Notes under the pieces: generated by a model
Database searches by the model: none
What the model saw: the letters and a program-made list of their open reading frames with translations, nothing else
What the model was told of the DNA's origin: nothing
Translations under genes and position numbers: made by a program
In this document: piece after piece, positions 8,217 through 44,575 of the stretch
Layout of the letters: each line of letters begins with the position of its first letter
Position numbering within the stretch: position 1 is the first letter of the stretch
IMG/VR virus record: IMGVR_UViG_3300009788_001696
Location: 1-44,659 of that record
DNA: 44,659 nucleotides
Source: a virus
Reading direction: 5' to 3' (one strand)

Positions 8217-8591
8217 TCATACCGTCGCCGTGAAATCTTGCGTCACGATGAAGCGCCCACATCGCGGGGTTGTTTTGCGGCCGCCGTTTTCTTTGACCTG
8301 CAAATCGTGGAAGTAGTCGCCGACGGCGATGCCCTCCATGACGGCGTCGCTGATCCGGACGGTGATCAGAGCATCGACACCAAGCAACGGATCGGGAGGG
8401 CCGGGATCGTCGATGACAACGCCGCCACCGGTCAACGAGACCTGAGCGAGGCCAGGATCCGGATCGGACGCGAGCGCTTTGATCGTGAAAAGAATTTCCT
8501 CGGGCGAGACGAGCACCGGATCGGATCCGCGTACCACGCGAAATTGGCGGACGAAGGTGTCGCCGCGTTTGGTTGTGAGGGCGAGGGTCAT
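8217..8591 (-). CDS. Fibre-associated beta-sandwich-like protein
   Basis: A 124-residue beta-rich protein (MTLALTTKRGDTFVRQFRV, then ILFTIK, then YFHDLQVKENGGRKTTPRCG). The pattern of an N-terminal RGDTF, a central FTIK and a YxxDLQV strand is one I associate with small phage proteins encoded beside tail fibres and similar to the N-terminal domain of receptor-binding BppU proteins. It overlaps the giant repeat fibre by four bases. It is probably a fibre adaptor or cap; the exact role is inferred. Confidence 0.6.
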   Translation of the reverse strand: MTLALTTKRGDTFVRQFRVVRGSDPVLVSPEEILFTIKALASDPDPGLAQVSLTGGGVVIDDPGPPDPLLGVDALITVRISDAVMEGIAVGDYFHDLQVKENGGRKTTPRCGRFIVTQDFTATV

Positions 8592-11233
8592 TTTTTCCTT
8601 ACGACCTCGGCGGTCATTGGGATCGGTGGTACGGCGGCCGCTGTCATCGTCTTGCGTTCGTCGATTGTTCGCCGGCTGAGTTTCGCATTTGCCGTCGCTC
8701 CGACGTTGACGGTGGCGGTGATCGGCTCGGTGAGGACGATCGTGAGATCGGCGTTCGCGGTTGCGCCGACGAGCTCGGTGGCATCGAGGCGGCCATTGCC
8801 TTTCAGGAGCGCGTTTGCGGTAGCGCCGACACCTTCCGTCGCGTCAAGGCGTCCTGTGGCATCGAGAGCGGCGTTGGCTTGAGCTCCGACCGCGACCGTC
8901 GCCGTCGCGAATGCCTTGCCGTCGAGGTCCGCGGTGGCCGTAGCCCCGACTGTGGCCGTCGCTTCGATGCGACCCTTGGCTTTGAGCGCCGCGGTCGCCG
9001 TCGCGCCGACTGGCTCTGTCGCCGCCAGCATCGACGCCGCGTTGAGAGCCGCGTTCGCTGTAGCGCCAACTGTGGCGGTCGCCGAGAGTCGGCCAATGCC
9101 GCGAAGGTCCGCGTCGGCCTGAGCTCCAACCACCTCGGTCGCTTCGATGCGACCCTTGGCGTTGAGGTCTGCATTGACCGTGGCTCCGACGTTGACTGTG
9201 GCGGTGATCGCACCCGACGCGACGTCGGTGAGGTTCGCGTTGGCGGTAGCGCCGACGCCCTCGGTAGCTTCGAGCCGGCCGGTTCCATTTAGGTCGGCGT
9301 CGGCCTGAGCGCCAACGAGCTCGGTGGCTTCGAGCCGACCGGTCGCGTCGAGGGCGGCGTTAGCCGTGGCTCCGACGCCCTGGGTGGCATCTAGGCGCCC
9401 CTTGGCATCGAGGGCCGCATTGGCGGTGGCTCCGACGCTCGCAGTGGCTGATAGCCGGCCGGTCGCCTTGAGGTCCGCGTTGGCCGTTGCGCCGACCGGC
9501 TCAGTCGCTTCGAGTCGACCGGTCCCGTTGAGGTCTGCGTTCGCGGTGGCGCCGACGGGCTCAGTGGCTTCGAGGCGCCCCCTTGCGTTGAGGTCCGCAT
9601 TCGCGGTCGCGCCGACCGTGGCGGTCGCTGATAACCGCCCGCGGGCCTTGAGGTCGGCATTCGCCGCGGCTCCAACCGTCTCGGTCGCGGTTGCTCGAAC
9701 GAAGGGTTTGAGGTCCGCATTCGCCGTGGCCCCGATTGGCTCGGTGGCTTCGAGGCGCCCTCGGCCATCGAGATCCGCATTGGCCGTGGCGCCGACGTTC
9801 GCGGTGGCGGTGATGTTGACGGTCGCACTGAGAGCTCCGTCGGCCTGAGCTCCAACCGTTTCGGTCGCTTCAAGTTTGCCGATCGCTTTGAGATCGGCGT
9901 TGGCCGTCGCGCCAACCGGCTCGCTCGCGTCGAGAGCTCCTCGACCGTTGAGATCCGCGTTCGCTGTCGCGCCGACCGGCTCCGTTGCATCGAGCGCGCC
10001 GGTGCCGTTGAGGTCCGCGTTCGCCGTCGCGCCGACGTTGACCGTCGCTTCGAGCTTGCCGATTGCGTTGAGGTCCGCGTTTGCAGTCGCGCCGACGTTG
10101 ACCGTCGCGGTGATTGGATCGACGCCATCGAACGGCGCATCGGCAAACGCATCGACGTCGCCCATGAGGTAGTCCATGGACTGGTTTCCATGACCTACGC
10201 CGTCGCGCGCGCACGCGAGTACGACTTCAAAAATGTCACCCGCGGCTCCCGCGCTCCACGATACTGATCCAGTCGTGAAAAGATGGATGCCGGTTCCGCT
10301 CGCGAGCGATTCGACTTGCGCTTTGGTTTCTTGGTCGGCGCCACCGCCGGCACTTACTCGCGCAAAGTGTCCGACCGATGAGCCTGCGGTCGTGTAACCG
10401 AAAGTCAGACCGGATTCGGTCGCGCTGACTTCAATCTGCGCGCGATAATTCCCGGTCGGCCATTGCGTTAGATTTGGCTCACCCGCGGCGGTGATATGCG
10501 ATGCATAGAGCGCGTCACTGTTGATCCCGAGGTTGCCGCCGAACATCGTGGCGGCAGTGCCCTGGATGAGATCCATCGAGCGTGCGTTGCCCGATGCGAT
10601 GGTGTGCGGGCCGGTCCGCGTCGGGTTATTTAGGAAGTAGGTCTTTGTTCCGTCAGGAACGCGATAGCGGCCTTGCGAGCGTTGCGGTTTAACGAGGCCA
10701 TCAACATCGAGCTCGGATGCGTCTAGCCCTTCCGTCCACGCGCGCCACGTTGTCGCCGGTCGCGCGTCGTCGTGTTCGGTGGCCTTCTCGTCGGTAGTCC
10801 AAACGCCATGCCGCACGTTTGAAGTCGGCGCTACGAAGTCGCTCCAAGGTTCCGGGTCGCTGATAAAGTCAGAGGCGTCCTCCGCATAGATGACCTTGGT
10901 TTGGCGCGTGTTGATCGCGCCTCCAAGGTAACTGTCGGCCGCGAGGGTTTTGAACGTCCAAACTTCGGCGTGACGATGGTCCGCCCAATCATCCGCGTCG
11001 TCGTTCCATGCGGTGACGATGATCGTCTCCGAGTCGACGTGCTCGACGTGGTAATGGTCGAATCCTTTCAGCGTTACGCCTTGTACGCAAAGCGCGTAGA
11101 TCCAACCGATGACGTTGTCGATCGTCTCAGTGCCGGACGGCACTGACTTTGCTACCGTCGACCCCCATGCGGTCGAGTCAACCTCGTCGTATGCGGCGAC
11201 CGTCGCGCGGGTCCACTGAATACAAAGCCGCAT
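8588..11233 (-). CDS. Giant tail-fibre-like protein with 24 twenty-residue repeats
   Basis: An 881-residue protein. Residues 1 to about 372 form a non-repetitive head with a concanavalin or lectin-like flavour (SGLTFGYTTAGSSVGHFARV). It is followed by about 24 tandem copies of a 20-residue unit with consensus GRLEATEPVGATANADLNGT, and a short tail ending in PPIPMTAEVVRKK. The repeat is built from alternating small and hydrophobic residues, as in beta-solenoid fibre shafts. Its C-terminal tail and repeats are shared with the upstream gene at 11236-13161, two bases away, so the pair arose by duplication. It is presumably an adhesin or fibre of the virion. No enzyme motif is seen. Confidence 0.75.
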   Translation of the reverse strand: MRLCIQWTRATVAAYDEVDSTAWGSTVAKSVPSGTETIDNVIGWIYALCVQGVTLKGFDHYHVEHVDSETIIVTAWNDDADDWADHRHAEVWTFKTLAADSYLGGAINTRQTKVIYAEDASDFISDPEPWSDFVAPTSNVRHGVWTTDEKATEHDDARPATTWRAWTEGLDASELDVDGLVKPQRSQGRYRVPDGTKTYFLNNPTRTGPHTIASGNARSMDLIQGTAATMFGGNLGINSDALYASHITAAGEPNLTQWPTGNYRAQIEVSATESGLTFGYTTAGSSVGHFARVSAGGGADQETKAQVESLASGTGIHLFTTGSVSWSAGAAGDIFEVVLACARDGVGHGNQSMDYLMGDVDAFADAPFDGVDPITATVNVGATANADLNAIGKLEATVNVGATANADLNGTGALDATEPVGATANADLNGRGALDASEPVGATANADLKAIGKLEATETVGAQADGALSATVNITATANVGATANADLDGRGRLEATEPIGATANADLKPFVRATATETVGAAANADLKARGRLSATATVGATANADLNARGRLEATEPVGATANADLNGTGRLEATEPVGATANADLKATGRLSATASVGATANAALDAKGRLDATQGVGATANAALDATGRLEATELVGAQADADLNGTGRLEATEGVGATANANLTDVASGAITATVNVGATVNADLNAKGRIEATEVVGAQADADLRGIGRLSATATVGATANAALNAASMLAATEPVGATATAALKAKGRIEATATVGATATADLDGKAFATATVAVGAQANAALDATGRLDATEGVGATANALLKGNGRLDATELVGATANADLTIVLTEPITATVNVGATANAKLSRRTIDERKTMTAAAVPPIPMTAEVVRKK
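8677..10118 (-). repeat. 60-bp tandem repeat array coding for 24 fibre repeats
   Basis: A degenerate 60-bp unit encodes GATANADL and a linker. About 24 units are seen, most exactly in register; a few carry small insertions (for example around ITATVNVGA and TDVASGAITATVNVGA). Synonymous and non-synonymous differences between units indicate an old array kept under protein-level constraint. It is not CRISPR: units are contiguous and coding. Confidence 0.85.
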
Positions 11234-11235
11234 GG

Positions 11236-13161
11236 CTAGTCGACCTCGTCGGCAGTCATTGGGATCGGCGGGATATGTTCGGCCGTCATGAGCTCGCCTT
11301 CGTCCGGCGTCCGTAGACTGAGCGCCGCGTTCGCCGTCGCTCCAACGTTAACGGTCGCTTCGAGCTTGCCGGTCGCATTAAGGTCGGCGGTTGCAGTCGC
11401 TCCAACCGACGTCGTCGCCGTTGCGAATGCCTTGCCGTCGAGATCCGCGTTCGCCGTTGCGCCGACATTGGCCGTAGCGGCGATGTTGACCGTGGCACTG
11501 ACAACTCCGTTCGCCTGAGCTCCAACCGACTCGGTCGCTTCGAGTTTGCCCGCGCCTTTGAGGTCGGCGGTGGCGATGGCGCCAATGCCTTCGGTGGCTT
11601 CGAGGCGGCCGGTGGCATTGAGGTCGGCGTTCGCTGTCGCGCCAACACCTTCGGTGGCGTCCAGAGCTCCGCGACCGTTGAGATCGACATTCGCTGTCGC
11701 CCCTACGTTTGCTGTCGCCTCGAGTCGGCCTTTGGCTTTGAGCGCCGCATTGGCCGTCGCGCCAACGGGCTCGGTGGCGCGGAGTTGTCCTAGATCGCTC
11801 AGGTCTGCGCTAACCGTTGCACCGACATTGGCCGTCGCTTCGAGACGACCGATCGCCTTGAGCGCCGCATTCGCGGTAGCACCGACTGGCTCCGTGGCTT
11901 CGAGCCGGCCTCGACCTTGGAGGTCCGCATTGGCTGTCGCGCCGACGAGCTCGGTGGCGGTAGCTCGGACGAATGGCTTGAGCTCGGCGTTGGAGGTAGC
12001 TCCGACGGGCTCGGTGGCGTCGAGAACTCCTCGGCCATCGAGGTCGGCGTTGGCCGTCGCGCCGACGGTCGCCGTTGCTTCGAGGCGTCCCCTACCTTTG
12101 AGCGCCGCGTTCGCTTGAGCGCCGACGGTCGCGGTCGCGGTGATCGGAGATACGCCTGCGGGAAACTCGATCACTTCGTAAAAGAGAGTTTCCGTGCTGA
12201 GAGAATCCGTCGTGTTGGCTTCGACCTCGGTCGTGCTGTTGAACTCAATTGAGCCCATCAAAGTGTTTTGGTCGTTCGCTTCCGTGCTCGATGCGTTGGG
12301 CGCCATCGGGCAGTGGGCAAATGAGCGTGACAGAACAACGGCGCTGATCGCATCCGTTCCAACGGTCACACCCGAACCATTTACGATGCTGCCCCGCTGG
12401 ACAGTGACACCTGCGGCGACGGTAAACTCGACGACAAAAGCATCCAGTTGTGCCGTGCCAGCGGGATCGTCGCGCACGTAGCGGACGGTCGTTGTGTCGA
12501 AGAGAAAGCAGACACCCCACTCGTCCGGCTCGTCGCCAAAGTTGTCGAGCTCTTGCGATCCGAAAAGCAGAGTCCGATCGAGAGCTACCGCAGTGATCGT
12601 CGCGTCCGCGGTTACGCCTGGAATTGAGAGCGCCTGAACGCGCTCCACGTTGAAGAGTCCCCCCGACGAGGTATCTTCGACTACCCACCAATCGAGCGTG
12701 ATTGTGTCCGTCGCGGTGTCGCGCTCGAAATGTAGATTCGTGGTGCTCGAAAGCATCGCGCGAATCGAAACGGTATCGTTATCACCGCCGGTGATCTCAT
12801 AGGTGAAGAGTGCGAACGCCTTTGTGAGATCAACCGCTGTGATCGTCTCGTCATGAGTCGCGGTGGAGAAAGTCGCGCTTCCAGATTGGATCGTTACTTC
12901 GCCGGTGTCCCACTCGATGACGACGGCTTGGATGATGAGTTGCCCGACCGTATTTGCGCGGCCGACCTCAAGCCGATTCGGTCCGGTTAGGAACCGAGCG
13001 CGAACCATAAAATTTGTGTAGTCGTCTGCTCCGGGCTGGGTGTTGACGGAGATACGCGGCGTACAATCGGCAACGTTGCCGACGGATAGATTGACGGTCG
13101 CACTCGCGACACCATCGGCGAGTGTGATCGAATGATTTTCGATTGAGATGACGGCGGCCAT
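11236..13161 (-). CDS. Second repeat-containing tail-fibre-like protein with 14 repeats
   Basis: A 641-residue protein. About 345 N-terminal residues are beta-rich (SITLADGVASATVNLSVGNV..., VRARFLTGPNRLEVGRAN...), with recurrent [TA]ITAVxLxR motifs suggesting three similar subdomains. Then come about 14 copies of the 20-residue GATANADL repeat and the tail PPIPMTADEVD. Its repeat and tail are paralogous to the next gene, but its N-terminus differs, as expected of two fibres sharing a shaft and carrying different heads. It is probably a virion adhesin or structural fibre. Confidence 0.75.
   Translation of the reverse strand: MAAVISIENHSITLADGVASATVNLSVGNVADCTPRISVNTQPGADDYTNFMVRARFLTGPNRLEVGRANTVGQLIIQAVVIEWDTGEVTIQSGSATFSTATHDETITAVDLTKAFALFTYEITGGDNDTVSIRAMLSSTTNLHFERDTATDTITLDWWVVEDTSSGGLFNVERVQALSIPGVTADATITAVALDRTLLFGSQELDNFGDEPDEWGVCFLFDTTTVRYVRDDPAGTAQLDAFVVEFTVAAGVTVQRGSIVNGSGVTVGTDAISAVVLSRSFAHCPMAPNASSTEANDQNTLMGSIEFNSTTEVEANTTDSLSTETLFYEVIEFPAGVSPITATATVGAQANAALKGRGRLEATATVGATANADLDGRGVLDATEPVGATSNAELKPFVRATATELVGATANADLQGRGRLEATEPVGATANAALKAIGRLEATANVGATVSADLSDLGQLRATEPVGATANAALKAKGRLEATANVGATANVDLNGRGALDATEGVGATANADLNATGRLEATEGIGAIATADLKGAGKLEATESVGAQANGVVSATVNIAATANVGATANADLDGKAFATATTSVGATATADLNATGKLEATVNVGATANAALSLRTPDEGELMTAEHIPPIPMTADEVD
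11318..12149 (-). repeat. 60-bp tandem repeat array coding for 14 fibre repeats
   Basis: The same 60-bp unit as in the neighbouring gene, with about 14 copies. Related unit subtypes occur in both arrays (for example PFVRATATE and NITATANVGA or NIAATANVGA), showing that the arrays share ancestry or exchange by recombination. Confidence 0.85.
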
Positions 13162-15079: not shown

Positions 15080-17185
15080 TTACGTTAGCGTGTGTGTCAC
15101 GTCCGAGCTGTCGCGATACTTGAGAAGCCCATCGGCGCCATCAACGTAAAGAAAGATTTGTTCCGGGCTGCTAGATGGAGCCGAGCTCGGGTTTGTCGTC
15201 GCTTCGTCGATGACGATGCCGCCGACCATTCCACCAAACGCGGTTGCTTCCTGCGATTGGAGCGAGACGTTGCCGCCCAGAATGAACGCGATTCCTGTGA
15301 GACCGCTGCCGATTGGCGCGCCGCCGCGCATTCCGACATCGCCGCCATCGTTGTTGGTGCCGCCAAGCGCTGCGCCGCCGTCGAAAGACATCGCGACACC
15401 CTTCGCGTCGACCGGGTTGCCGACCGCCTTGTGCCTGACGAGTAAGACGTCGACCGGCGTATAGGTGAACACCGTCTCGCTTGCGATGCTCGGATCGATT
15501 TTCAGAACGTTGATCCCAGTCGACTCGTCCTTGAACAGAAAAGCACCATAGGTGCCGCCGTTGATGTCACCGAGGGTCGCTTGCCAGTTTCCGCCCGTGC
15601 CACTGCTGTCGCCACAGCCGCCGGCCTCCGTGAGAAATGTTCCACCTACGAACGCGCCAGTGGGCGCCGGTGGCGCTGCAAACGTAAAGTTTTTCGCGGA
15701 TCCCGTTTGCGCAACGGCTGTGATCAATCCGCTTCCACCTTGACCGAGGAACCGCATCGCGCCTCCAAAGTCGGCAAAGCCGGATGGAAGGGCAAGTTGT
15801 GTGACGCCCGCGATACTGAATTTAAAAGCAGATCCGGTCGGAAGCAAAAAGTCCATTCCGAGAATTGCGACGTTGTTTTGCCCGTAGGTCAGAATGTCAC
15901 TCACGGAGACGAACACAGCGCGTAGGTCCCCATCGTCGAGGAAGTTGCGAAACTTCAGCGCCGCGTTATTCGCGCCACGAAACGCACCTGAGATCGCAGG
16001 GATTGCGCCGGTCGTAACAAAACCAGTCGTGCGGATCTCGCTGCCCATAAAATTGGCCAGCGCGCTACCGATGTTCATCCGGGGCGTGCCGTCTTGGTTA
16101 TAGACAAGGCCTGTACTTGAACGTAGCTCGAGATTGCCGCCGATCGACTGCTCACCGATTATGATCGCGCCCGCGTTGTAATTGATGACGTTGAAGTGTC
16201 CGGACTCGCCAACGATGAACGCGGAGATTTGAAAGGAGACCGTCCCGCGAATGTCGCCCTCATCCGAAAATGTCCCGCCCGCTTGACTCACTCGGAGATG
16301 GTTGCCGCTCGCGATCGTTGCGATACCCGTCTCGAAGCGCGCGATCTCGGCGGACGCGATGTCTTGGATGATCGTGCGGTCTTGTCCGGTGTATCCGTTG
16401 AGGACGAGACCGCTCCCCGTCGTGCGGATGACTGGCTCGGTTTGTCGCCTAAAGTCGAGCTCACCGAGCGCGTCGATCGCATCGCCGCCGGTGAGGTCGA
16501 GGTTCGTCCCTCCGGTCGCGTTGCTTCCCGGCGCGACCGCGAGCATCGCCGCAAGCGTGAAGGCCGTCGCCGCCCATCGTGAGCCGCCCGCGGTGCGATG
16601 ACGCGCGATGACGTTGTCCGCGACGTTGCCGGTCCCGAGGCTCGCGTTTTCCCACTCGACGCCTTGGATGGCCGCGACGTTGGTCGCACCTAGAGCTCCC
16701 GTGACGTCGCCCATGAGCACCGCCCTCGACCATGCCGTTGGGTCGGTGTCGATGACATCGTTGGGCGGGTCGGTCGTGCATGTCCAAGTCTGGTCCGCGT
16801 ATGTCGCGCCCTCGGTGACCTGGACTAGCGTGCCGGCTGCGCTTCCTCCGGGCTGATAGTTGAGCGGTCGCGTCCACGCGCCCGCATGCGCGATCCATGG
16901 ACCGTTTTGGCTGCCCGTCGACTGCGCCGTCAAAGTGACGCCGTCGCCGTCGGTGTCGATGGCGACGGTGTCGACAACATTCGCGAGACCGTTGAGGCTT
17001 GCGACGTTCACATCCGCAAGAGCTCGCACCTTGATCAGTGCGGCGCTGTCCGCGCTGAATTGCGTTGAATCGGCAACATCGACCATCCAACCGCCAACAC
17101 GAGTGGCAGTGTTCGCGCCCGCCGCGACCTCGTCGCGGATCGTTTGCGCATCGGCGAGTGATTGTGATCTTGTAACTACTGCCAT
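15080..17185 (-). CDS. Tail fibre protein
   Basis: A 701-residue protein. Residues about 45-155 carry the pattern common at phage fibre N-termini: VASLNGLANVVDTVAIDTDG, GPWIAHAGAWTRPLN, VTEGATYADQTWTC and DPTAW. The remainder is Gly/Ala/Asn-rich and beta-strand-rich, with no enzyme motif, and the last 60 residues (FGGMVGGIVIDEATTNPSSA...) resemble a trimerisation or attachment tip. It follows the gp48-like baseplate gene with a 4-base gap, as expected for the main fibre. Confidence 0.8.
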   Translation of the reverse strand: MAVVTRSQSLADAQTIRDEVAAGANTATRVGGWMVDVADSTQFSADSAALIKVRALADVNVASLNGLANVVDTVAIDTDGDGVTLTAQSTGSQNGPWIAHAGAWTRPLNYQPGGSAAGTLVQVTEGATYADQTWTCTTDPPNDVIDTDPTAWSRAVLMGDVTGALGATNVAAIQGVEWENASLGTGNVADNVIARHRTAGGSRWAATAFTLAAMLAVAPGSNATGGTNLDLTGGDAIDALGELDFRRQTEPVIRTTGSGLVLNGYTGQDRTIIQDIASAEIARFETGIATIASGNHLRVSQAGGTFSDEGDIRGTVSFQISAFIVGESGHFNVINYNAGAIIIGEQSIGGNLELRSSTGLVYNQDGTPRMNIGSALANFMGSEIRTTGFVTTGAIPAISGAFRGANNAALKFRNFLDDGDLRAVFVSVSDILTYGQNNVAILGMDFLLPTGSAFKFSIAGVTQLALPSGFADFGGAMRFLGQGGSGLITAVAQTGSAKNFTFAAPPAPTGAFVGGTFLTEAGGCGDSSGTGGNWQATLGDINGGTYGAFLFKDESTGINVLKIDPSIASETVFTYTPVDVLLVRHKAVGNPVDAKGVAMSFDGGAALGGTNNDGGDVGMRGGAPIGSGLTGIAFILGGNVSLQSQEATAFGGMVGGIVIDEATTNPSSAPSSSPEQIFLYVDGADGLLKYRDSSDVTHTLT

Positions 17186-40526: not shown

Positions 40527-40555
40527 TTGCACTTCGGAAAGCGGTTTCCTATACT
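40527..40555 (+). promoter_or_regulatory. Operator-containing promoter, copy 1
   Basis: TTGCAC (40527-40532), then a 17-base spacer ending in GGAAAGCGGTTTCC (40536-40549), then TATACT (40550-40555). The GGAAA/TTTCC arms form a short palindrome across the spacer, a good place for a repressor or activator. The repeat extends upstream to an AAAATAGATCCGATTTGG block (40507-40524) and an ACTGAACA box (40485-40492). It drives the 67-residue gene at 40589. Confidence 0.8.
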
Positions 40556-40901: not shown

Positions 40902-40930
40902 TTGACCATCGGAAAGCGGTTTCCTATAAC
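40902..40930 (+). promoter_or_regulatory. Operator-containing promoter, copy 2
   Basis: TTGACC (40902-40907), 17-base spacer with GGAAAGCGGTTTCC (40911-40924), TATAAC (40925-40930). The core 17-nt spacer is identical to copy 3 and differs by one base from copy 1. Upstream, an ACTGAACA box lies at 40852-40859, but the AAAATAGATCC block is missing here. It drives the 117-residue gene at 40967. Confidence 0.8.
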
Positions 40931-41399: not shown

Positions 41400-41428
41400 T
41401 TGCGTATCGGAAAGCGGTTTCCTATAAC
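41400..41428 (+). promoter_or_regulatory. Operator-containing promoter, copy 3
   Basis: TTGCGT (41400-41405), 17-base spacer with GGAAAGCGGTTTCC (41409-41422), TATAAC (41423-41428). It is preceded by the AAAATAGATCCGATTTGG block (41380-41397) and the ACTGAACA box (41359-41366), so it matches copy 1 over about 70 bases. The ATG of the next gene is only 6 bases after the -10. Confidence 0.8.
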
Positions 41429-41434
41429 TAACTC

Positions 41435-41566
41435 ATGGCGAACGGGACTCGAAGGGCGATTCAAGCGGCGGCTCTCGTCGCGGCCCTCGTCGGAGTCCTC
41501 GCCGGAAACTCAAACCCATCCGGGCGCTTCGTCCGCGAGCTCAATCCCACGGAGATCAGCAAATGA
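41435..41566 (+). CDS. 43-residue hydrophobic peptide, leaderless start
   Basis: ATG 41435 to TGA 41566 encodes MANGTRRAIQAAALVAALVG followed by VLAGNSNPSGRFVRELNPTE and ISK. It has a basic N-terminus and a 17-residue Ala/Leu/Val segment that could be a membrane span or signal. The ATG lies at the predicted transcription start of promoter copy 3, so the mRNA would be leaderless. Its TGA overlaps the next ATG by four bases (ATGA), giving translational coupling. It is too short for routine calling and could be missed. Confidence 0.6.
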   Translation: MANGTRRAIQAAALVAALVGVLAGNSNPSGRFVRELNPTEISK

Positions 41567-41811
41567 CCGACCGACGCACCGACCTGAACGCCGCCCTTCG
41601 TTGGGTCCTCACCGGCATCGAGAACAGCGCCCTCACAAGCGGCTACCTCCGTTGGTCCGATGTCGATGGCTCATGGCACCAAACGCCGCACCGACCCGAG
41701 GCCGGCTACCGCGTGGACGCCGAAGGCATCGTTTATCGCATCATCGCCGAAGGCCGCGAGCGTCGCGTTGGCAAGGTCGACAAATTCCACGCATTCATCA
41801 TCGAGGACTGA
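41563..41811 (+). CDS. Hypothetical protein (82 aa)
   Basis: An 82-residue protein starting MTDRRTDLNAALRWVLTGIE at the ATGA overlap. It has SGYLRWSDVDGSWHQTPHRP, YRVDAEGIVYRIIAEGRERR and a C-terminal HAFIIED. It is a small mixed alpha/beta protein upstream of the methyltransferase with only four bases between. No family is recognised; an accessory to the methyltransferase operon is inferred. Confidence 0.7.
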   Translation: MTDRRTDLNAALRWVLTGIENSALTSGYLRWSDVDGSWHQTPHRPEAGYRVDAEGIVYRIIAEGRERRVGKVDKFHAFIIED

Positions 41812-41815
41812 GGCC

Positions 41816-42796
41816 ATGCGGATCGGTTCACTGTTCAGCGGGATCGGCGGCTTAGAGCTTGGCCTCGAATGGGCCGGGCTCGGTCGCACGGTGTGGCAAG
41901 TCGAATCCAACGCGTTTTGTAGAAGCATCCTGAGCAAACATTGGCCGGAGGTAAAACGCCATGAACAAATCGAAACAGTCGGAGCCGAGTGCCTCGAAAG
42001 AGTCGACCTCATCTGCGGAGGGTTTCCCTGCCAAGATATCAGCTCGGCGGGCAAGGGCGCTGGCCTCGACGGTGATCGAAGCGGCCTTTGGTTCGAAATG
42101 GCGCGCGTCATTCGCGAGCTTCGACCGCGCTTCGTCGTCATTGAAAATGTTGCAGCGCTCGTTATTCGAGGACTCGATCACGTCCTCAGTGACCTTGCCG
42201 CGGGCGGGTATGATGCGATCTGGCTCCCTTTACGAGCTGCCGACGTTGGAGCGCCCCATCGCCGCGAGCGGATCTTTATCGTTGCCTGGAGACTGGACGA
42301 CGCCCATGGCGGGCGACGCTGGGCGAGGACCGCGACGAACGCCGAAGGGGCCAGGTCGCGGGGGTCAACGGGATCTGGTGACGGATGCGATCGAATGGCC
42401 GACGCCTCTGGCAACCGAAACGAAGCGCAGCAACGATCGACGGAATCGAAAACAAGGGCGGTCACTCACACACACGGTGCGAACGATGTGGCCGACAGCG
42501 ACAGCCGGCGACGCGAGGGCTGGCGGCTCCCGCAACACACCGACGAGCAAAGCTCACGCGGGACTCAGTCTGACAGACGCGGTGACGACCGGGGAGTCAA
42601 CTGGCCGCCAGGACCCAACGGTGACTGGGACGCCTATGTCCGAGCGGGTGGTCCTGAACCCGTGGTTCGTCGAGGCACTCATGGGATTCCCAATCGGGCA
42701 CACCGACTGCGAGCCCTCGGAAACTCCGTCGTCCCGCAATGCGCCGAAGTGATCGGACACATCATCAAGCAACTTGAAAGCAGAGGACCTCAATGA
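41816..42796 (+). CDS. C5 cytosine DNA methyltransferase (Dcm family)
   Basis: A 326-residue enzyme starting MRIGSLFSGIGGLELGLEWA; longer starts lie inside the previous gene. All key motifs are present: I FSGIGG (7-12), IV GGFPCQ with catalytic Cys72, VI ENV (110-112), VIII APHRRERIFIVA (146-157) and X RLRALGNSVVPQ near 297-308. The region between VIII and IX (about 160-280), where the target-recognition domain should be, is hydrophilic and low in complexity (SRGSTGSGDGCDRMADASGN...). It would methylate DNA to evade host restriction or to mark phage DNA. The same DNA also encodes a second long ORF at 41961-42752. Confidence 0.92.
   Translation: MRIGSLFSGIGGLELGLEWAGLGRTVWQVESNAFCRSILSKHWPEVKRHEQIETVGAECLERVDLICGGFPCQDISSAGKGAGLDGDRSGLWFEMARVIRELRPRFVVIENVAALVIRGLDHVLSDLAAGGYDAIWLPLRAADVGAPHRRERIFIVAWRLDDAHGGRRWARTATNAEGARSRGSTGSGDGCDRMADASGNRNEAQQRSTESKTRAVTHTHGANDVADSDSRRREGWRLPQHTDEQSSRGTQSDRRGDDRGVNWPPGPNGDWDAYVRAGGPEPVVRRGTHGIPNRAHRLRALGNSVVPQCAEVIGHIIKQLESRGPQ
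41961..42752 (+). CDS. Overprinted gene nested in the methyltransferase, +1 frame
   Basis: A 263-codon ORF in the +1 frame relative to the methyltransferase. It has ATG 41961 and a perfect GGAGGT Shine-Dalgarno eight bases upstream, which itself lies inside the methyltransferase coding sequence. The protein has order: SSSLKMLQRSLFEDS, TLPRAGMMRSGSLYELPTLE, DWTTPMAGDAG, EWPTPLATETKRS, MWPTATAGDARAGG, LNPWFVEALMGFPIGHTD. These match a pattern I recall from phage proteins found with Dcm genes (LFEDS...LPRxGMMxxG.LYxxP, WPTPxAxD, NPxFVExLMGFPxGxTD). It should be taken as dual coding until tested. Function unknown. Confidence 0.6.
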   Translation: MNKSKQSEPSASKESTSSAEGFPAKISARRARALASTVIEAAFGSKWRASFASFDRASSSLKMLQRSLFEDSITSSVTLPRAGMMRSGSLYELPTLERPIAASGSLSLPGDWTTPMAGDAGRGPRRTPKGPGRGGQRDLVTDAIEWPTPLATETKRSNDRRNRKQGRSLTHTVRTMWPTATAGDARAGGSRNTPTSKAHAGLSLTDAVTTGESTGRQDPTVTGTPMSERVVLNPWFVEALMGFPIGHTDCEPSETPSSRNAPK

Positions 42797-43077
42797 AAAC
42801 TAAAACAGACGGCCGCACTGGCCGCACCATCGCCACCGACGGCCAAGCCCTCGGGCATGCGCTGAGGTGCTCGATCCCGCGCCTCAAGGCCGCGGCGGTC
42901 GCTCACGTTTGCAAGGTCTTGCGAAAGCACAAGGGCCGCACCATCCCCGCGGCCGACGAGCTTGGCATCACCTCGCGATCCCTCACGACTTGGATCGCGG
43001 ACTCGAGCGAGCTCGCCGCGGTCCGCGACAAGTTTGGCACTTGGGGCCGTGTGCCCGATCGGTTGGTGAAGTCATGA
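42793..43077 (+). CDS. Small HTH-like DNA-binding protein
   Basis: A 94-residue basic protein whose ATGA overlaps the methyltransferase stop. KVLRKHKGRTIPAADELGIT followed by SRSLTTWIADS reads as a Fis/Xre-type helix-turn-helix near residues 40-70. It begins MKTKTDGRTGRTIATDGQAL. It is a possible regulator of the early operon or of the operators upstream, though nothing direct links it to them. It ends in an ATGA overlap with the next gene. Confidence 0.65.
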   Translation: MKTKTDGRTGRTIATDGQALGHALRCSIPRLKAAAVAHVCKVLRKHKGRTIPAADELGITSRSLTTWIADSSELAAVRDKFGTWGRVPDRLVKS

Positions 43078-43906: not shown

Positions 43907-44575
43907 TCATCCCTTGCGGAGGATGCGCGCCGCGTTCGCTTTCATCGGTCGAAGCTGTGACTCGATGAGCTCGCGTACGATGGCCTCCGCGCGCTCGAGT
44001 GACTCGCCGGCTTTCGCCGCGGCGTAGACGCGCCGGCTAATTGTCCGCGGTGAATCGGTGACGAGCCGGCGTAGTCCCGAATCGAGCCATCCGAAAACGT
44101 GTTGCTTGACGAGCTCGCGCGAGATCAACTTGCCTTGGAGCTTGTCGGACGCGAGCCGCGACGATCGGACGTCCTCGATCTTCTTGGCCGCTTCGAGCCA
44201 GTCCTTGACCGTGCGCTCCGTTCCGAACCGGTCGAGGAGCTCGCGCAAGGTAAGGTCGAGATAGTCGTTGATGTCGAAGGCATTCGAGCGGAGCTCGGTC
44301 GGTTCCGCGGTATCACTTCGAGGAGGACCACCGGGTTTCTTCTTGGCGCGGGCCTTGGCTTTCGCCGGTTTGGCCGGATCCATCTGAGCGCGGGCGGGTC
44401 GGCGCTTGTGGCCTCGCGCGTATTTCTTGGCGGCCGGGTGGTCGATGTCGATGCGGTCGCGGACCTTCGCAGCCGATAGGACGTTCCGGCATGCCTTGGT
44501 GATTGCCGCCGGTGACACGCCGCACGTCGCGGCAAATTGCGACCGGCTTTCGAGTCGCTTGGTTTGCTTCGGCAC
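43907..44575 (-). CDS. DNA-binding protein resembling a Nu1-type terminase small subunit
   Basis: A 222-residue basic protein starting at GTG 44575 (MPKQTKRLESRSQFAATCGV). SRSQFAATCGVSPAAITKAC is a helix-turn-helix, and IDIDHPAAKKYARGHKRRPA gives a basic arm. The C-terminal half (NDYLDLTLRELLDRFGTERT, LISRELVKQHVFGWLDSGLR, SLERAEAIVRELIESQLRPM) is helical. HPAAKKYA followed by ISRELV..VF is seen in Nu1/DUF1441-like packaging proteins. Because terS already lies before terL, it could be a regulator, a second packaging factor or a relic. Confidence 0.55.
   Translation of the reverse strand: MPKQTKRLESRSQFAATCGVSPAAITKACRNVLSAAKVRDRIDIDHPAAKKYARGHKRRPARAQMDPAKPAKAKARAKKKPGGPPRSDTAEPTELRSNAFDINDYLDLTLRELLDRFGTERTVKDWLEAAKKIEDVRSSRLASDKLQGKLISRELVKQHVFGWLDSGLRRLVTDSPRTISRRVYAAAKAGESLERAEAIVRELIESQLRPMKANAARILRKG

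Follow-up and report, generated by a model that had tools for sequence, protein, structure and literature searches.

The gene for a C5-cytosine DNA methyltransferase in a viral contig from IMG/VR contains, wholly within it and in the +1 frame, a second open reading frame of 263 codons, and the question raised by this locus is whether that frame is a gene in its own right and, in that case, what its product does. The window, meaning the whole stretch of DNA analysed here (44,659 bp), carries tail sheath, baseplate wedge, tape measure, portal and terminase genes, and it therefore looks like a contractile-tailed phage. A preliminary description had reported the nested ORF from the sequence alone, and its coordinates, its ATG and the GGAGGT placed 8 nt upstream were all confirmed (Table 1). 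Likewise, the motifs that had been attributed to the methyltransferase, I, IV (PC), VI (ENV), VIII and X, are all present in the chain encoded in frame 0, here called alpha, the nested product being called beta. It had also been stated, rightly, that WPTPxA and ADxDG are one DNA read in two frames, and the same applies to SGMMRNG and GYDAEW. The similarity among nested frames is thus partly forced by frame 0, so that tests of constraint were needed.

Table 1. Features of the methyltransferase locus and its flanks (positions in the window)
Feature	Position	Strand	Basis
Promoter-like TTGCGT-N17-TATAAC preceding the methyltransferase operon; its spacer contains the GGAAAGCGGTTTCC palindrome	41400..41428	+	
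ORF of 82 aa and unknown function, directly upstream of alpha	41563..41811	+	
Alpha: C5-cytosine methyltransferase, frame 0, 326 aa, motifs I-VIII and X	41816..42796	+	PF00145, phrog_363, AF2, M.HhaI match
Shine-Dalgarno (SD) GGAGGT of the nested gene, ATG exactly 8 nt downstream	41947..41952	+	
Beta: nested +1-frame gene, ATG start, 263 aa, no stops; putative TRD and motif IX subunit	41961..42752	+	phrog_1008, constraint tests
Alpha motif IV GGFPCQDIS (catalytic PC)	42017..42043	+	sequence
Dual-coded block: beta residues 50-95 (predicted beta strands) over the alpha motifs IV-VIII region	42108..42245	+	AF2, synonymous differences
Alpha motif VI (IENV)	42140..42151	+	sequence
Alpha motif VIII GAPHRRERIFIV	42248..42283	+	sequence
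Three PTPTA-type repeats of beta (WTTPMAGD, WPTPLATE, WPTATAGD), at the position of the TRD; disordered spacer in frame 0	42294..42644	+	sequence, codon-position switch, pLDDT
Beta motif-IX-like segment LNPWFVEALMGFPIGHT (+1 frame); alpha leader GTHGIPNRAHRL is the same DNA	42654..42704	+	
Alpha motif X ALGNSVVPQ, frame 0	42713..42739	+	
94-aa ORF, ATG overlapping the alpha stop codon; HTH_8-like match weak and below cut-off	42793..43077	+	

Genomic surroundings

The sequence TCGGAAAGCGGTTTCCTATA occurs in three exact copies in the window (40534-40553, 40909-40928 and 41407-41426), each within a sigma-70-like promoter (TTGCAC, TTGACC or TTGCGT, 17 nt, then TATA..) that holds the GGAAAGCGGTTTCC palindrome in its spacer. 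These three promoters, of which one precedes the methyltransferase operon, are probably co-regulated by one repressor. Beside the tail genes, three large ORFs on the minus strand (8588-11233, 881 aa; 11236-13161, 641 aa; 15080-17185, 701 aa) had no PHROG match at 1e-4, and the C-terminal part of a further minus-strand ORF (43907-44575) matches the FtsK/SpoIIIE-like phrog_13700. In addition, phrog_864, named DNA primase and 1064 positions long, matches the methyltransferase at positions 671-870 (1.3e-6), a similarity which suggests that it may include fused or mislabelled members.

Retention of the overlap among relatives

Two independent sets of searches, one with the nested protein as query and the other with the methyltransferase, yielded about 175 viral loci, and a genome scan provided 80 further bacterial and archaeal records. 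A long +1 ORF extending from inside the catalytic domain to approximately motif X was kept in 79 of the 80 viral loci found with the methyltransferase alone, and a similar result was obtained for prophages across many phyla. The proposal of a second gene would have been refuted by a nested frame often broken by stops in homologues with an intact methyltransferase, or by one showing no constraint beyond that of the outer frame. The opposite was observed on both counts: the relatives recovered with the methyltransferase only keep the frame open, and stop depletion, profile scores, synonymous differences and a switch in codon-position periodicity, all described below, reveal additional constraint. 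Together they support the earlier inference of a dual-coding pair conserved across phages. The nested protein is matched by phrog_1008 (2.4e-32, residues 6-255), as were all eight relatives tested. Frame 0, for its part, carries the catalytic N-terminal half of alpha at every locus of the nested family examined, which demonstrates the co-occurrence of the two frames.

Selection on the nested frame

In this gene alone, the +1 frame stays open in 2% of synonymous-codon shuffles, which is moderately unlikely, so that the single sequence would not convince by itself; the relatives do. In 73 non-redundant loci, 16 stops were found in the +1 frame between codons 60 and 160, against 193 ± 11 expected from synonymous shuffles, with no depletion in either of the controls, namely the third frame (frame 2; 257 stops, 275 expected) and the +1 frame before the nested gene (83 stops, 80 expected). 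The stop count between motifs VIII and IX was dropped because it was conditioned by how those loci had been chosen, and the sample collected with alpha only (the 79 of 80 above) was used in its place. Across relatives, 57 SD-preceded ATGs were observed in the +1 frame against 21.8 expected, a fairer comparison than one with an earlier expected number, in which shuffled stops had been mixed.

A +1 profile applied to held-out genes scored 116 bits in real genes and 78 bits in frame-0-synonymous shuffles from codon 50 to motif VIII (motifs II-VIII), and 70 and 3 bits, respectively, from VIII to X. The 78 bits still reached by shuffles that encode the same frame-0 protein are what can be said in favour of regarding the open frame as a mere consequence of the composition and conserved motifs of frame 0, with forced shadows such as SGMMRNG over GYDAEW. 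This explanation is scarcely tenable, since it is already contradicted by the higher scores of the real genes on both sides of VIII, by the absence of stop depletion both in frame 2 and ahead of the nested gene, and by the codon-position periodicity, which switches frame. The profile test separates real from shuffled genes in frame 2 too and, because any extra constraint on the DNA would do so, it is not specific to the +1 frame when taken alone, unlike the stop depletion and the codon-position periodicity, which are.

Synonymous differences among relatives amount to 0.97-0.99 of those expected at codons 1-50 (~0.98 before codon 60) and then fall gradually, down to 0.62-0.84 at codons 101-140, which encode nested residues 54-93. 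In 70 disjoint pairs of relatives, the share of differences falling on the third position of frame 0 was 63% before the nested gene, 51% from codon 97 to motif VIII and 29% between VIII and IX, where the first position of frame 0, corresponding to the third position of the +1 frame, was the fastest (41%). Thus, coding in the catalytic half is mainly in frame 0, constraint acts on both frames from IV to VIII, and the +1 frame takes over between VIII and IX. Little constraint was seen over the first ~50 residues of the nested protein; nested residues ~50-95 and the segment shared by motif IX and the leader of motif X hold most of the true two-frame constraint. In this 3′ segment the same DNA is doubly conserved, as L-N-P-x-W-V-E-W-L-M-G-F-P-x-G-W-T in the +1 frame over GRVAxGVPxRVDRLxxLGN in frame 0. 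The M and G of the motif-IX-like segment were invariant in 158 of 158 relatives, which had been selected by a regular expression itself containing MG, and the spacing from IX to X was exactly 16 codons in 168 of 188 loci. These analyses demonstrate selection on both frames: the nested frame is selected far beyond chance, and the overlap is not a local accident.

Domain anatomy of the two chains

The large domain of M.HhaI combines the N-terminal part of the chain with the motif X helix at the C-terminus; between these two stretches lies the small domain, which holds the TRD and motif IX. Alpha matched PF00145 over residues 1-164 only (E 7.8e-42) and phrog_363 at 3.9e-78, and its AF2 model was confident at residues 1-165 (pLDDT ~97) and again at residues 294-323, with values of 90-97 for most of the motif X helix, whereas residues 178-271 were predicted to be disordered (pLDDT < 50). 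The model was superimposed on M.HhaI with Z 25.9 and rmsd 1.9 over 195 of 327 residues. From the M.HhaI anatomy and this AF2 profile, it was concluded that alpha is a large domain without a small domain, not meeting the usual monomeric form in which TRD and motif IX are found on the I-VIII chain. Its middle, judging from the model, would be mostly a disordered read-through of beta DNA. The missing pieces are best read as the PTPTA repeats and the motif-IX-like segment of the nested frame, by their position and by the fused relatives described below, without a structural match.

The AF2 model of beta, built on an alignment from which four rows derived from annotated records had been left out, was poor (mean pLDDT 60, pTM 0.25); its block means were ~78-85 for residues 51-80 and 62-67 for residues 81-100, and its highest-confidence part, to which nested residues 54-93 belong, was predicted as beta strands. 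PDB fold searches with this weak query model returned no meaningful match, nor did any match of the beta profile to solved C5-methyltransferases survive. A motif-IX match of the profile to a DRM methyltransferase in the PDB (E 0.73 with 10 sequences) was lost with 68 sequences and was not used. With a poor model and no PDB fold match, the TRD label of beta rests on position and fused relatives. Most relatives have two or three PTPTA repeats, the range being 0-5. The LNPWFVEALMGFPIGHT segment is present only in the +1 frame, and its assignment as motif IX is putative, being based on the in-frame position of its counterpart in fused relatives. On the same grounds of position and fused relatives, beta is very probably the sequence-recognising half of the enzyme, which bears out and refines the initial suggestion of a methyltransferase partner to that of the TRD and motif-IX half of the same enzyme.

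Natural variants across frames

Motif classes were assigned to the loci by pattern, which left a few of them unclassified, and the natural rearrangements so demonstrated show which part of the enzyme can sit in which frame. In the type of the window (188 loci), TRD and IX are in the +1 frame and X is in frame 0, which ends a median of 138 codons after VIII. In a second type, TRD, IX and X are all in the +1 frame, as in Mycobacterium phages Arturo and Miramae and prophage loci L211, L243 and L267; in 8 of the 11 loci of this type frame 0 continues for 0-16 codons beyond VIII, and in the other 3 for 44-61 codons. A mixed type, with a PTPTA-like TRD sequence in the +1 frame and IX and X in frame 0, was found in Gordonia phage Neville (L104) and Rhodococcus phage ReT1v-2 (L110), and its placement of IX and X is shared by S. 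platensis L112, L179 and L265. Frame 0 remains open past VIII essentially only when IX or X is still ahead in it. The frame crossing point of Neville and ReT1v-2 differs from that of the window type. In Mycobacterium phage Jarcob (L109, 1200-2370), the split of the methylase lies before VIII, with GYDAQW as the end of frame 0 and with VIII, TRD, IX and X all in the +1 gene.

Single-chain enzymes of actinobacterial relatives, with I-VIII, PTPTA repeats, IX and X in one frame, are represented by gp66 of Mycobacterium phage Kenuha5 (509 aa) and by an enzyme of a Tsukamurella plasmid (544 aa). The nested family is connected to these fused forms by a series of matches, each of them significant, from the window to L001 (3e-17), from L001 to the Arturo group (about 1e-6), and from Arturo gp75 to both Kenuha5 and Tsukamurella (2e-22 each). 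Compared directly by BLAST with the fused Tsukamurella enzyme, the nested protein of the window gave no significant match (E 0.12), and a 96.9% profile match falls in the low-complexity repeats; an apparent in-frame copy of the WPRSGMMRNG block in that enzyme, WPRTGTM, is suggestive only.

The order of the motifs in the DNA (I-VIII, TRD, IX, X) is that of a normal single-chain C5-methyltransferase and, together with the existence of single-chain relatives, it would agree with one polypeptide produced by programmed frameshifting, with a slip to the +1 frame after VIII and, in the window type, a return before X. Such an arrangement is very unlikely here, given that the window type would need two opposite slips at good efficiency, and selection on the +1 frame well upstream of the slip (codons 101-140, with stop depletion from codon 60) and an ATG and SD of its own argue against it. 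Moreover, IX and X are 16 codons apart in the window type versus 23-36 in most same-frame relatives, so IX overlaps the leader of X rather than preceding it.

The same variants bear on whether the nested gene, although real, could be independent of the methyltransferase and do no more than share its DNA, acting for instance as a regulator or an anti-defence factor. The lack of a recognised fold in beta and the seemingly unconstrained start of the protein leave some room for this, and it is improbable, to a slightly lesser degree than frameshifting, because beta was never found without alpha in the loci examined, motif X moves between frames with frame 0 shortening accordingly, PTPTA repeats and IX are, in the fused forms, part of a C5-methyltransferase chain, and alpha has no room for a folded TRD.

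A proposed two-polypeptide methyltransferase in overlapping frames

With considerable confidence, the locus can be interpreted as a two-polypeptide C5-cytosine DNA methyltransferase encoded in two overlapping frames, although its translation, its assembly and its activity are inferred. Alpha would be the large domain, which binds AdoMet and DNA and flips the base; a disordered linker, no more than the beta DNA read in frame 0, would connect its N-terminal motifs I-VIII with its C-terminal motif X. Beta, translated from its own SD and ATG, would supply the small domain, composed of a folded block at ~50-95, the PTPTA repeats at the TRD and motif IX; in the absence of expression data, the enrichment of SD-preceded ATGs is the only, indirect, sign of this translation. 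The two chains would assemble in trans, beta picking the target sequence and alpha methylating the cytosine; the complex, its activity and the specificity role of beta are likewise inferred, with no activity data available. The methylation would probably protect phage DNA from host restriction, a function inferred from common practice.

If this interpretation is true, the specificity-setting part is missing from the annotation of many phage methyltransferases, an enzyme obtained by cloning only the annotated gene would be inactive, and attempts to predict specificity from that gene would fail. The locus would also represent a well-sampled and deeply conserved same-strand overlap in dsDNA phages, whose two products are parts of one enzyme. 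A broader hypothesis can be put forward only tentatively, and with somewhat less than even confidence: a large share of the phage and prophage C5-methyltransferases annotated as a single 'Dcm' may be heterodimers with an unannotated +1 target-recognition subunit, whose dual-coded block arose by overprinting on the catalytic domain and whose PTPTA repeats are interchangeable specificity modules, some single-chain actinobacterial enzymes being later fusions.

Comparison with known systems

The small subunit of M.EcoHK31I reportedly has its ORF within that of the large subunit, in a different frame.

C5-methyltransferases made of two polypeptides include M.AquI and M.EcoHK31I, and fragments of monomeric C5-methyltransferases complement in trans (PMC3404938). 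In M.EcoHK31I, also described as naturally split (PMC3439449), motif IX belongs to the small subunit and motifs I-VIII and X to the large one (PMC3404938), an arrangement shared by the window, where alpha has I-VIII and X and the motif-IX-like segment is on the putative second polypeptide. However, the predicted TRD of M.EcoHK31I is on the large subunit (PMC3404938), whereas in the window the TRD position is occupied by tandem PTPTA repeats in the nested frame. No recognisable M.EcoHK31I-like R-M locus was found in a search of plasmids. M.AquI is naturally split by a break inside the variable region (PMC3404938), and both X and IX are on its small subunit, unlike the window, in which X is in frame 0; the placement of IX and X on the small subunit is found also in Arturo, L098, L103, L211, L243 and L267.

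A second protein in another frame of a phage methylase gene is also known from ShiLan-domain methylases, in which an out-of-frame HNH endonuclease is hidden (PMC11855218), but there it is a mobile insertion encoding an endonuclease and not a part of the enzyme. A literature search, which did not cover subscription literature, found no paper on the phage overlap described here. In databases, phrog_1008 (nested) and phrog_363 (alpha) are both named 'DNA methyltransferase' by PHROGs, without mention of an overlap or split, and in mycobacteriophage annotations both of the overlapping parts appear as 'DNA methylase'. Paenibacillus phage Diva has the same layout in DIVA_49/DIVA_50, the latter annotated as 'g49 internal gene' with no function proposed, and many other records annotate only alpha. 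The locus therefore belongs to a large, mostly unannotated phage family for which M.EcoHK31I (YGGCCR; Lee, Kam and Shaw 1995) is the named precedent, and what appears to be new is the near-universal retention of the overlap, a TRD position assigned to the hidden frame, the mapping of a dual-coded block and the variants that cross between frames.
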